DNA of 64,000 bases from Sporomusa malonica (GTDB lineage Bacteria > Bacillota > Negativicutes > Sporomusales > Sporomusaceae). Shown one piece after another: positions 10,592 to 48,053 of the stretch (positions are counted from its first letter, which is position 1; every line of letters starts with the position of its first letter). The position numbers were made by a program, and so were the translations under genes. The notes under the pieces were generated by a model. That model ran no database searches, was not told where the DNA came from, and saw only the letters and a list, made by a program, of their open reading frames with translations. The stretch spans positions 1 through 64,000 of the forward strand of contig NZ_FWXI01000013.1 of NCBI RefSeq assembly GCF_900176355.1, given 5' to 3'.

Positions 10592-10686
10592 GTTTATCCT
10601 GTAAGAAAGTACAACTTTCCGTCTGGATAAGGCAACATCGGCTTCCGCTGTCGCCAAAGGCTCGGCGCAAGCCGTGTTTTCTTTAT
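10592..10686 (-). repeat. Dispersed two-hairpin 3'-UTR repeat, copy A
   Basis: Read on the minus strand it starts ATAAAGAAAACACGGCTTGC, 4 bases after the receptor stop codon, and ends ACAGGATAAA. Hairpin 1 is closed by CGGCTT/AAGCCG with inner CGCC/GGCG-type pairing. Hairpin 2 is closed by TTATCC/GGATAA with inner AAAGT/ACTTT. It nearly matches copies C and E. It lies between the stop codon and the terminator and is therefore part of the mRNA 3' UTR. Confidence 0.9.
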
Positions 10687-10689
10687 CTA

Positions 10690-12378
10690 CTAAACTTTTT
10701 GCTTTTCGCCTACAAATAGCATCCCAATGATATGCCCGCTTTTATCTTTGAGCGGCTCATAATTGACGATATACCACTGCCTCATTACAGTAGCACGACC
10801 AATATACTCAGTAGCCCGTTCAAGTACAGCCTTTTCAACATACTTAGCTGCCGGTGTGCCTGTGGCTCGCCGTCCCGACTTAGTTGTCACGGTTGTGGCA
10901 ATTCGGGTATTTCCCTGGAACACCGTACAGGCTGCCCCGACTTTTTGCGCAATGTCATCAACAAGCCTATCATTGTTATTAATTACTTGATCACCGGCAA
11001 CCACCTGATTGTTGCTATTAATATAAATAGGTCCATATTGGGTTAATAAATTACGGGCTTTATCCAGCTTATCTTTAATTCTCTTCCGTGTGATTTCATC
11101 AACAGCAACAAATTGAGCTGTCATTTCTTCCATGCTTTGGGCCATAAGATCCAGATCATGTGCTGAGGCTGCGATTTTTTCAATTGTCGCAAACACCTCT
11201 TCACTGGCAGCATTAATTTCCTGACTAGAGCCTGAGAAATGGCGGGCAATACTGGTGATTTCGCCTACATTAACCGCGATATCCTCTATATCATTGGCAA
11301 CACCGGCTGTATTGTGCGCCATAGAGCTGACTTGTTCATTTAGCTTTTTGCTTACGGCGATAATGTGGTTCAAGGCAGCTTCTGAACCGCTAGCCTTCTC
11401 AGCTCCCTGATGGGCCTGGTTAAGCGCGTCCTCGATGGCTGCTACCGTGTCTATCGTTTCCTGTCTTACCCCTTGTACCAGGCTGGTTATTTCCTCAGCC
11501 GACTGACGCGAGCTTTCTGCCAGTTTTCGTACCTCATCAGCAACTACAGCAAAACCTCGGCCTTGTTCACCTGCCCGAGCCGCCTCAATAGCTGCATTGA
11601 GCGCCAAGAGATTAGTCTGGGCGGCAATCGCTGTAATCACTTCGACAATCTGCCCAATCTGGTTAATTCTCCCAGCCAGACCATGAATAGCCTTAGCCGA
11701 GATATCCATTTGATTCTTTACCCCGGTCATGGTTATAATGGCTTCTTTAACCTGACCTGCGCCATCAACAGCACTGGCACTGGCTTCTTTAGCCAGTTCA
11801 ACTGTCTGAACAGCCATGCGATTGGTATCCTGTACCTGGGTACTGGCATGATTAGCAGACTGACTGCATAACTCAATGTCATGTACCTGCCTGGCCGAAC
11901 CAGCTGCAATTTCACCCATATTCGCGGTGGTTTGGCGCATGGCTTCCGTAGTCTGTATTGTATAATCAGACAAATATTTACTTGCTGAAGATACTTTTCC
12001 GCTAATCTGCGTAAGTTCCCCCACTAAGTCCGATATTTTTCCCATGAGATTATTTGTCGTATGGGCCAATTGACCAATTTCATCATTTGTTGCTATTTTT
12101 AATTTTTTACTCATATCCCCGCCGCCCCCAGCCATTTCCATTAGGCTGGCCAGCAATTGGTGAATTGGATTGGCAATAGCCCTGGAAACAAACAGCGCCC
12201 ACACTGCTAGAACGAATAATGATCCTATAATATACATAATTATAATTGCCTGAAAAGTCGCAGGAGACATGATGTTCATTAGCAGAAGAATCCCGGCCAA
12301 AGGTGCTATACCGGTAAAAAACAGACAGCTAGCCAACTTACCATTAATACCTTGCAACCATTTTAATAGCTGCTTCAT
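10690..12378 (-). CDS. Methyl-accepting chemotaxis protein with C-terminal Cache-like sensor
   Basis: 562-residue chemoreceptor. Two membrane segments lie close together at the N-terminus (about 13-36 and 43-67) with almost no external loop. A HAMP domain (about 64-118) and the methyl-accepting signalling domain follow, with the hairpin tip [29 protein letters not shown] consensus region. The last ~140 residues (about 420-562) look like a single-Cache type 3 domain ([18 protein letters not shown], then a [14 protein letters not shown] segment near the end). Such domains are normally extracytoplasmic between the two membrane segments; here the topology puts it in the cytoplasm after the signalling hairpin. 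The ligand is unknown. Confidence 0.88.
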
Positions 12379-12588
12379 TTTGACTCACTCCTTTCAAATC
12401 AGATAGATCATTCTCATTTTTCATTACTTCGTGAAATTTCTGTTAATTCCTTCTGTAACTGGATTAAATTGTTAAAAATATCACATCATCTAACTAAAAA
12501 TAAAAATAGTGTCACATATTGTCAACACTATTCCATGATCACATCACATCCGCCTCTATCAGCATAGAATAGTAGCGGAGGTGAAAAT
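12379..12588. other. Divergent promoter region, receptor / L,D-transpeptidase
   Basis: This AT-rich region carries an AAAGGAGTGAG ribosome site for the receptor (minus strand) and CGGAGGTG for the transpeptidase (12578-12585). No further structured element was recognised. Confidence 0.4.
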
Positions 12589-12927
12589 ATGGCTTATTCT
12601 ATTAAAATCTCGTTACTACAGAAACTCCTAATTCTTATGAAAGACGGCAAAATCGTGAGAAGTTATCCTGTCGGCGTAGGCAAAACAGCTACCACTACCC
12701 CCATAGGAAGATATCATATTATTAGTAAGATCCGTAATCCTGGTGGCCCCTTTGGAGTAATGTGGATGGGGCTCAGTCAGCCTCACTACGGTATTCATGG
12801 CACTAACAATCCATCTTCTATCGGCGGTGCGGTATCTAAAGGCTGTGTTCGTATGTATAACCGGGATGTGCTTGAATTAGCGGGCTTAGTTGATGTCGGC
12901 ACCCCGGTCACAATTGAAACTAATTAA
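12589..12927 (+). CDS. Small L,D-transpeptidase (YkuD family)
   Basis: 112-residue protein made of little more than a YkuD catalytic core. The signature HYGIHGTNNPSSIGGAVSKG followed by CVRMYN supplies the catalytic His and Cys. YkuD enzymes cross-link or anchor peptidoglycan through meso-diaminopimelate stems. There is no signal peptide, membrane segment or LysM domain, although the substrate is outside the membrane; it may act in the forespore/mother-cell compartment or be exported another way, both inferences. A GGAGG ribosome site precedes the ATG. Confidence 0.85.
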   Translation: MAYSIKISLLQKLLILMKDGKIVRSYPVGVGKTATTTPIGRYHIISKIRNPGGPFGVMWMGLSQPHYGIHGTNNPSSIGGAVSKGCVRMYNRDVLELAGLVDVGTPVTIETN

Positions 12928-12929
12928 TC

Positions 12930-13457
12930 TTAACCCAACTCAACACTATCCTCGTCCTCTATATTACGTGAAAAACACATTTCTGCAGTGAGCTGTTCAA
13001 AAAAGTTTACATTGAAGACCCCAGGTACAGTACCATTTGTCATGCGGTTGCCGTGAAAACCGATAATGACCCCTTGGACGATGGCTGCTGTCTTACCGTT
13101 TGACAGTGGTATGCCGCGAAAAGGATTAAAATCAAGAGGAGCAATATAATAATTAAGTACACCGTCACTATTGACGACCAACCGATTAGGGTCTAACCCA
13201 TCAGCAGTGTAAATGGCATCAGTAGGAGCAGCTGGCCTAAGACCTCTATCTGTAGCAAACCAGACAGTATAGACGCCCTGCGGAATAAGCCCTTCAGCCG
13301 ATATTGAAATACTACCGCCACCGTCGTAACCGCATACCTCACCTGTGGCTGTAGCTTGCACCCAAAAACCAGCATCAATAACCGGCGGCCTGTTGGCAGG
13401 CAATATATCAAACTCAAGCTGACAGCAGCCTTGACATTTATCAACCTTTCTGTCCAT
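12930..13457 (-). CDS. Hypothetical protein with Cys-rich N-terminus
   Basis: 175 residues, not recognised. It begins MDRKVDKCQGCCQLEFD, three cysteines in five positions. A glycine- and valine-rich, apparently all-beta region follows (GYDGGGSISISAEGLIPQGV, later VVNSDGVLNYYIAP and GVFNVNFFEQ), which suggests a beta-sandwich. The tail is acidic. No signal peptide or membrane segment is visible. GGGGAG precedes the ATG. It is convergent with, and almost touches, the L,D-transpeptidase gene. A spore-coat or surface role would fit the composition but is speculation. Confidence 0.65.
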   Translation of the reverse strand: MDRKVDKCQGCCQLEFDILPANRPPVIDAGFWVQATATGEVCGYDGGGSISISAEGLIPQGVYTVWFATDRGLRPAAPTDAIYTADGLDPNRLVVNSDGVLNYYIAPLDFNPFRGIPLSNGKTAAIVQGVIIGFHGNRMTNGTVPGVFNVNFFEQLTAEMCFSRNIEDEDSVELG

Positions 13458-47521: not shown

Positions 47522-47536
47522 GAGGTAATCGATAAG

Positions 47537-47917
47537 ATGTGGGGCAGTAAAAAACAAGCAATCAGCACAGGTGACCAAGTAGGCACTATTATTGGCGCAG
47601 ATACCTCGTTCAAGGGTAACATTACTTCACAGGGGACTATCCGCATTGATGGCCAGCATGAAGGTGAAATTGCTACTGCTGGAGATGTTGTCATAGGTGA
47701 AGGCGGTCAGCTGCAGGCTCAAGTGAAAGCCCGTAATGCAGTTGTTGCCGGGATGATAAAAGGCAACATCGATGTTTCGGATAAATTGGAGCTTTTGCCT
47801 ACTGCAAAAGTTTATGGCGATATCAAAGTAGGTACGCTGACAATCAATGAGGGCGCGGTATTCCGCGGCGCCTGCCAGATGCTTAAAGAAGTATCTGATA
47901 ATGAGGGCAACGAATAG
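47537..47917 (+). CDS. Bactofilin
   Basis: 126 residues: a single right-handed beta-helix of bactofilin type (GADTSFKGNITSQGTIRIDG, VVIGEGGQLQAQVKARNAVVAG, KVYGDIKVGTLTINEGAVFRG). Bactofilins polymerise without nucleotide and place cell-wall enzymes; the M23 peptidase immediately upstream is a likely client. GGAGG precedes the ATG. Confidence 0.93.
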   Translation: MWGSKKQAISTGDQVGTIIGADTSFKGNITSQGTIRIDGQHEGEIATAGDVVIGEGGQLQAQVKARNAVVAGMIKGNIDVSDKLELLPTAKVYGDIKVGTLTINEGAVFRGACQMLKEVSDNEGNE

Positions 47918-47927
47918 GGAAAAAATA

Positions 47928-47962
47928 AACCCAGGATGCTTTATAGTATCCTGGGTTTTTTA
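47928..47962. terminator. Terminator between bactofilin gene and yyaC
   Basis: The stem AACCCAGGAT / ATCCTGGGTT is followed by T on the plus strand. On the minus strand the A-rich side also gives T, so it can close yyaC transcripts as well. Confidence 0.85.
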
Positions 47963-47964
47963 TA

Positions 47965-48053
47965 CTGTTAGAAAGGTTAACTTTCCTCCTGGATAAGGGC
48001 AACATCGGCTTCCGCTTTCGTAAGGCTCGGCGCAAGCCGTGTTTTCTTTATAC
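47965..48053 (-). repeat. Dispersed two-hairpin 3'-UTR repeat, copy G
   Basis: On the minus strand it starts GTATAAAGAAAACACGGCTT about 11 bases after the yyaC stop codon. The first hairpin matches the consensus (CGGCTT/AAGCCG). In the second, the inner AAAG/CTTT stem is kept (GAAAGTTAACCTTTC) while the outer pair has decayed. Confidence 0.88.

Follow-up and report, generated by a model that had tools for sequence, protein, structure and literature searches.

A two-hairpin repeat behind terminators and T-tracts in Sporomusa malonica and other Bacillota, probably a small non-autonomous mobile element

A stretch of 64,000 nucleotides (nt) of the Sporomusa malonica genome (contig NZ_FWXI01000013.1, positions 1 to 64,000; hereafter the window) carries seven copies, A to G, of a repeat of about 90 nt that consists of two hairpins, H1 and H2, in one fixed orientation (Table 1). 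We consider it likely that these repeats are copies of a small non-autonomous mobile element, which is directed to terminators and T-tracts. A preliminary description, made from the letters of the window alone, had claimed seven copies of a dispersed, structured two-hairpin family. All seven places were found to hold the repeat, with the covariance model R2 as well as by reading of the sequence. What that description had missed is where the repeat lies (behind terminators or T-tracts), how it is oriented and where it ends, as well as the existence of sister families and the spread over the whole phylum. In the following, genomes and loci are given by our own numbers (G and L); G000 is the genome of the window and G006 is presumably Sporomusa termitida.

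R2 was built from 25 diverse sequences, including copies A, D and G, which therefore match by construction, and it recovered the seven copies with E-values from 1.5e-18 to 1.3e-5. Altogether it gave twelve matches in the window. The other five lie opposite copies A, D, E and G on the other strand, and one of these opposite-strand matches (E 5.1e-6) outscores copy F. The consensus and the window have 186 12-mer hits in common, whereas 100 dinucleotide shuffles gave 0.55 on average and 6 at most. Copy B had been taken for a decayed copy of 51 bp, but it is matched by R2 over its full length, and its sister family is complete in L166 and L167.

Table 1. Copies of the repeat and adjoining features in the window (positions in the window; "in model alignment" marks copies from which R2 was built).
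Feature	Position	Strand	R2 match	Basis and remarks
Copy A, main family	10597..10685	+	10596-10685	R2 96.5 bits (in model alignment); 97% to copy E
Copy A, sense layout: H2 - linker - H1 - GTGTTTTCTTTA	10597..10685	+		
Intrinsic-terminator hairpin directly upstream of copy A	10555..10589	+		sequence
Copy B, full-length sister-family member, CGACTAAGGCTT...AAGTCTTATCTTA	27062..27159	+	27062-27158	R2 45.8 bits, E 2.3e-7
Terminator hairpin TAAAGCCAGGGA...TCCCTGGCTTTA upstream of copy B	27025..27053	+		sequence
Copy C, subfamily, ~19 extra nt inside H1	27951..28059	-	27951-28059	R2 E 3.3e-7
Copy D, diverged, CCCTCATAG-type H2, stem CAGCTT/AAGCTG	28967..29060	+	28966-29059	R2 83.3 bits (in model alignment)
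Terminator hairpin upstream of copy D	28931..28959	+		alignment; also in G006 without the element
Copy E, main family	35278..35367	-	35278-35367	R2 90.7 bits
Terminator hairpin upstream (sense) of copy E	35372..35407	-		sequence
Copy F, diverged	41303..41392	-	41303-41392	R2 E 1.3e-5
Presumed parS-like palindrome TGTTTCACGTGAAACA and T-tract abutted by copy F	41400..41415	.		alignment
Copy G	47963..48050	+	47962-48050	R2 82.9 bits (in model alignment)
Terminator hairpin upstream of copy G	47927..47958	+		sequence; terminator-like stems in G006, G004 and G001 by eye

The natural sense of the element is the reverse complement of the direction in which it was initially read. In this sense, the sequence TTTTTTN, usually preceded by a hairpin, leads into the element, which comprises the H2 hairpin, TAAGNGCAAC, the H1 hairpin and GTTTTCTTTA. 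In S. malonica, H2 is TCCTGTAAGAAAGTATAACTTTCCGTCTGGA and the linker is TAAGGGCAAC, followed by H1 and GTTTTCTTTA, where the H1 hairpin is formed by CGGCTTCCGC...GCGCAAGCCG with AACA/TGTT beneath. H2 is flush with the 5' end, and H1 lies about 10 nt from the 3' end. The second hairpin had been described as closed by TTATCC/GGATAA, but the actual closure is TCC...GGA, beginning with the first base of the element. Both ends are sharp. In 104 copies, set in plus orientation, the outer flanking base is A in 79% and the next inner base is T in 95%; at the opposite end, seen in 98 copies, GGA and one free base precede an A-rich stretch of about 7 nt, which is the complement of the T-tract of the flanking site. 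The 3' end of the element, namely the H1 hairpin with GTTTTCTTTA, resembles the hairpin and T-tract of the target. Sequence conservation is also seen in the 3' half of H1 and in the linker, and copies are near-identical within a species and different between species. The subfamily of copy C has six further matches of 125-128 nt in the same genome, of which the one in L110 was read and carries the same insert, while the other five were judged by their length.

Both hairpins covary across species, as the preliminary description had expected for the stems. The change to CAGCTT/AAGCTG that had been noticed in copy D was confirmed, and in the alignment of the 25 diverse sequences both partners have changed in 13 of 27 pairs. 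The covariation score was 0.140 versus 0.090 in shuffled alignments, and none of 500 shuffles scored as high; slid structures all scored lower. For one of the five measures, that of further pair types, 25 of the 500 shuffles attained the observed value. With 37 distinct sequences from the whole phylum, in an alignment that was fitted to the model, 16 of the 27 pairs change on both sides. In an independent test of H2, the arms of 11 representatives were permuted, and the observed complementarity was reached in 5 of 5000 trials. Four of the 11 representatives reach five of six pairs with their own arms, compared to 8 of 110 swapped combinations, where one representative (the window row) probably fits the pattern by chance. 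Two early and weak tests of the H2 arms gave 7 of 25 own combinations with seven of eight pairs (swapped, 51 of 538) and 5 of 10 with six of seven pairs (swapped, 12 of 78). Perfectly palindromic H2 hairpins occur in some lineages (L033, L214).

The genome of S. malonica (5.19 Mb, 66 contigs) contains at least 150 matches, all spanning the model; since 150 of 2140 first-look candidates were scored, this number is a floor. Another 44 copies were found in G006 at E <= 1e-6. A single DNA query matched 26 of 60 genomes, including G000 and all eight congeners, and a diverse model matched 28 of 299 genomes of the phylum at E <= 1e-5 with 14 candidates scored per genome, namely G000 and 27 of 298 others. 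These 27 genomes are all from the same phylum and from another class. The scan of the whole genome and of relatives, which had been proposed together with the first seven copies, has thus revealed many more of them, and the element spans a large bacterial phylum, the Bacillota. The matches listed for the H1 end include Sporomusa silvacetica, S. acidovorans, Sporomusa sp. KB1 and Desulfosporosinus sp. HMP52, as well as a Syntrophomonas metagenome-assembled genome (MAG) and other Bacillota MAGs. One match was on a plasmid (NZ_CP036260, Sporomusa termitida). Among phages, INPHARED gave no match and a pattern scan of IMG/VR no matching contig.

The flanks of the element were studied in a sample of its copies. 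From 135 of the 150 own-genome matches, 80 loci were drawn at random; the 15 matches left out were six on the contig of the window and nine at contig ends or belonging to a tandem partner. Together with 30 earlier loci and the window, this gave 104 distinct copies, of which 98 could be used at both ends, and by this scheme the sample leans to well-preserved copies. In the sense of the element, the upstream flank is in most cases an intrinsic terminator with a T-tract that continues directly into the element. With a stem-score threshold of our own choice, a strong stem ends 3-14 nt from the junction in 55 of the 98 copies; the corresponding numbers are 15 of 490 for shuffled and 7 of 98 for downstream flanks, and intergenic sites matched for their T count predict only about 10 of 98. 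Moreover, the last nine bases upstream hold at least four T at 97 of the 98 sites. Other members of the phylum show the same arrangement. In 37 of their 41 matches (the remaining four repeat a place already listed), the stem was found upstream 20 times and downstream once, and in G336 upstream in 11 of 13. A gene in the same sense lies upstream of 62 of 90 intergenic copies, according to crude gene calls with an ORF (open reading frame) mask that was likewise our choice.

The genes of the window are collinear with those of G006, G004 and G001 where these were fetched, and several sites can be compared with and without the element. The terminator at site D is present in G006, where the element is absent. 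At site F, the palindrome is found in G006, G004 and G001 (with one mismatch in G001), again without the element, and site G is occupied in G006 and empty in G004 and G001. The palindrome itself, which we take to be parS-like, lies in the gap after the ORF at 40361-41296 and is present in these three congeners. Copy C adjoins a T-tract, and a clear hairpin was not seen in its flank. Tandems, in which a copy follows head to tail behind the T-rich end of another one, sometimes of a different family, occur in several genomes (L005, L008, L166, L167, L190, L204, L261). In G181, which is a single contig, three identical element sequences stand behind three different terminators, which implies recent movement, and the copies of G336 are nearly identical. 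No target-site duplication was detected in the 98 copies at lengths of 2, 3, 4, 5, 6, 8 and 9 (0-14 of 98 matches, not above shuffled pairs), and likewise none in shifted registers. In G006, the sense strand runs along the replication fork in 26 of 42 chromosomal copies, a hand count which assumes that the record starts at the origin and which is not informative.

These comparisons also bear on the view that the repeat is not mobile, and is instead a conserved regulatory or terminator-reinforcing structure at the 3' end of certain genes, kept there by selection. The position behind terminators, the terminator-like end of the element itself, the frequent same-sense gene upstream and the occurrence of copy G in G006 would all agree with such a role. 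However, the neighbouring gene families are varied, and the near-identity within species goes along with divergence between species. The terminator of site D and the palindrome of site F exist in congeners without a copy, and neither the tandems nor the three identical copies at unrelated sites fit a fixed structure. We therefore consider this view very improbable. In our judgement, the ends, the orientation, the target and the mobility of the element have been demonstrated or are strongly supported.

For the way in which such a mobile element could move, we infer an enzyme supplied in trans, which would recognise the two hairpins in single strand. The element would be inserted 3' of a hairpin and its T-tract, at or near the end of a terminating transcript, and this insertion would resemble that of HUH (IS200/IS605-like) elements 3' of a flanking target word. 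The 3' end resembling the target, the lack of a duplication and the fixed orientation would follow the logic of IS200/IS605. Landing behind terminators would avoid harm, which would explain why 150 or more copies are tolerated, and, since the element's own end would serve well as a target, it may also give rise to head-to-tail tandems.

A number of observations weigh against a terminator-directed mobile element or fail to lend it the support that might be expected. Transposition was not observed, and the single-stranded DNA substrate is a deduction only. A strong stem is absent at 43 of the 98 sites by the chosen threshold, and, as 97 of the 98 are T-rich, terminators may often serve as the target without being required. 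An antisense gene lies upstream of 28 of the 90 intergenic copies, and 8 of the 98 copies fall inside a crude ORF call. The pairing of H2 is imperfect or poor in the abundant Sporomusa types. Site A is free of the element in G006, yet the terminator there resisted alignment, so that it does not count as a clean empty site. For site E, a neighbouring gene differs, which leaves no clean comparison. Furthermore, when 1086 ORFs of 184 loci were compared all against all, no transposase family recurred beside the copies, in agreement with the initial statement that no transposase lies near. By eye, the largest ORF clusters beside copies belonged to ordinary families, for example ABC transporters and chemoreceptors. 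A split or autonomous form of the element was not found among 248 H1 ends in the sampled loci. Of these ends, 19 lack H2 or the linker by the patterns used, and the two with a distant H2-like word (L157, L215) are the same genome region with a truncated H2. The search for Y1 transposase genes has to be added here. There are 10 Y1_Tnp matches in the genome of the window, and none of these 10 loci holds the element (best match E 0.28; six loci are cut by contig ends). We also searched 31 positive genomes, namely the 27 others of the phylum scan together with G006, G004, G011 and G033; as most of them are drafts, absences are not absolute, and copies in some of them may be old. Y1_Tnp was found in 26 of the 31, with no match in G093, G181, G262, G311 and G336.

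Non-autonomous derivatives of IS200/IS605 elements are known as PATEs, and the repeat could be a PATE-like element, moved by a Y1 HUH transposase that is present now, or was until recently, in each host. IS200/IS605 elements insert 3' of a target word and produce no duplication, as far as the available part of a previous article describes it (PMC6006769). The hairpins at or near both ends of our element, the absence of a duplication, the fixed target word on its 5' side and the right end resembling the target are all in agreement with this, and so are the Y1_Tnp matches in most positive genomes and in S. malonica itself. Against it stand the five genomes without a Y1_Tnp match, among them the single contig of G181 with its three identical copies, and the 10 Y1 loci of the own genome (six of them cut by contig ends), none of which contained the element. 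Moreover, no Y1 gene was found beside a copy. H2 is flush with the end rather than subterminal, and its outer arm is free to covary. An unambiguous guide tetranucleotide for cleavage-site pairing could not be picked out by eye. Taken together, we regard a PATE-like origin as possible but doubtful.

The Y1 genes also bear on a relationship to the REP and BIME families spread by RAYT proteins, to which the preliminary description had pointed. Like REPs, BIMEs and REPINs, the element is short, intergenic, high in copy number, built from hairpins and mostly found behind genes, and RAYT-like Y1 genes do exist in the genome. The defining tag of REPs is GT[AG]G (or CGTC) at the foot of the hairpin, according to the portions available of two articles (PMC3733652, PMC6006769). 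By inspection, no such unpaired tag was found at the foot of H1 or H2 in the aligned copies, and in L160 GTAG occurs only as part of a paired H2 arm. The element is a unit of about 90 nt with two different hairpins and was not found flanking RAYT genes. By eye, the RAYT-like genes (L040, L041, L042, L043, L044, L047) are flanked by repeats of their own (GGGGTCAGGCTTGAGTTAT, GGGGACAGGTAC..., GACGGTTCTTTTG...), which are separate from the element. Based on the missing tag, the flanking genes and the phyletic gaps of Y1_Tnp, a REP/RAYT origin was rejected, and we see hardly any room for it.

To our knowledge, targeting behind intrinsic terminators is otherwise known only for group IIC introns. 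These are ribozymes of several hundred nt with a domain V and an encoded reverse transcriptase. The element might accordingly move at the level of RNA, through the reverse transcriptase of a group II (IIC-type) intron or by priming at the end of a T-tract, like a bacterial short interspersed element. Group IIC introns use intrinsic terminators as insertion sites, as stated in the accessible part of PMC4424553, and our element shares this position in S. malonica as well as in other members of the phylum. A primer would be naturally at hand in the T-tract strand. RVT_1 was found in 24 of the 31 positive genomes, and the genome of S. malonica has six matches to group II intron domain V (L168-L173), three of them over the Rfam cut-off; by eye, L172 adjoins a Y1 gene and L170 an IS110-like gene. 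However, the element is far shorter than such an intron, and it is present in genomes without an RVT_1 match, namely G133, G209, G237, G259, G311, G315 and G336, the last of which is 99% complete and has near-identical copies. Intron_gpII (domain V) had no match in the window at the gathering score and none in six element loci at E <= 1. The copies are full length at both ends and show no 5' truncation, although our searches favour full-length copies. Hence, we consider movement at the RNA level unlikely. In Rfam as a whole, no family matched the window or the six loci; two weak hits at E <= 1 were far below the gathering score, one outside the element and one touching its edge. This agrees with the earlier impression that the repeat fits no named element.

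Two further families were searched in 21 of the 31 genomes. IS110 matched in 19 of them, with no match in G133 and G207, and Resolvase (serine recombinases) in 18, with no match in G181, G209 and G315. G181 is without Y1 and serine recombinases and G336 without Y1 and RVT_1, and both have IS110 matches. Each of the four families has gaps, none was found in every host, and a single required enzyme family among Y1_Tnp, RVT_1, IS110 and Resolvase was rejected. A tyrosine recombinase, a DDE enzyme, an unseen enzyme or an enzyme of the host are possible mobilisers. It is conceivable, though we would not favour it, that the element represents a phylum-wide orphan class, whose two hairpins form a unit that is placed where terminating transcripts are released, by a machinery outside the Y1, reverse transcriptase, IS110 and serine-recombinase families. 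This may even be a housekeeping enzyme of the host, and genomes with active copies could then be without a dedicated mobile-element gene. There is a real chance that the mobilisation is new in kind.

Among other small repeats, miniature inverted-repeat transposable elements (MITEs) are likewise short, non-coding, non-autonomous and high in copy number. The element differs from them in that its ends, TCCTGT... and ...TTTCTTTA, do not form inverted repeats, and in the absence of a duplication. No parent insertion sequence was found among the 248 H1 ends of the sampled loci. Ends of the Helitron type (5'-TC...CTRR-3') were seen by eye in some lineages, were inconsistent and were dismissed. The SPRITE repeat of Streptococcus pneumoniae is, in the part of its description available, one AT-rich stem of 18 bp with a long U-rich tract, nearly confined to the pneumococcus and S. 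mitis (PMC3049150). It is similar to our element as a terminator-like small repeat near the 3' ends of genes, which tends to cluster with other repeats and to insert into them, and may be regarded as a conceptual relative. By that partial description, its single stem sets it apart from a two-hairpin unit of about 90 nt (PMC3049150).

Some observations concern the sister families and the surroundings of the copies. In L110 (about 2121-2250) and in L209, a copy of the main family is followed in tandem by a third sister family, ...GGATAAGGTCGACTAAACTTCAGATGGGGTTAAAACCCCACCTGAAGCTAAGTCTTTCTTTA, which is itself a landing site in the upstream flank of L011. L110 (1120-4125) and L209 (340-3338) contain a region of 3 kb with 92% identity between the genome of the window and Sporomusa acidovorans, while loci of congeners are otherwise 71-78% identical; both regions hold the element, one of them in the variant with about 19 inner nt. 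At its left edge, the window begins with a 16S rRNA gene on the minus strand (1-313), which is cut by the window edge.

Overall, the repeat is read as a small non-autonomous interspersed element, which as such is a known kind. No published description of it was found by title or abstract, in a search with most subscription journals outside its coverage, and it would be an apparently undescribed, widespread family of small mobile DNA in Bacillota. Its distribution raises the question of which enzyme moves a hairpin pair of 90 nt to the ends of transcripts in genomes that are without the usual candidates. In the bacteria that carry the element, many terminators and 3' ends bear a second structured, terminator-like unit.

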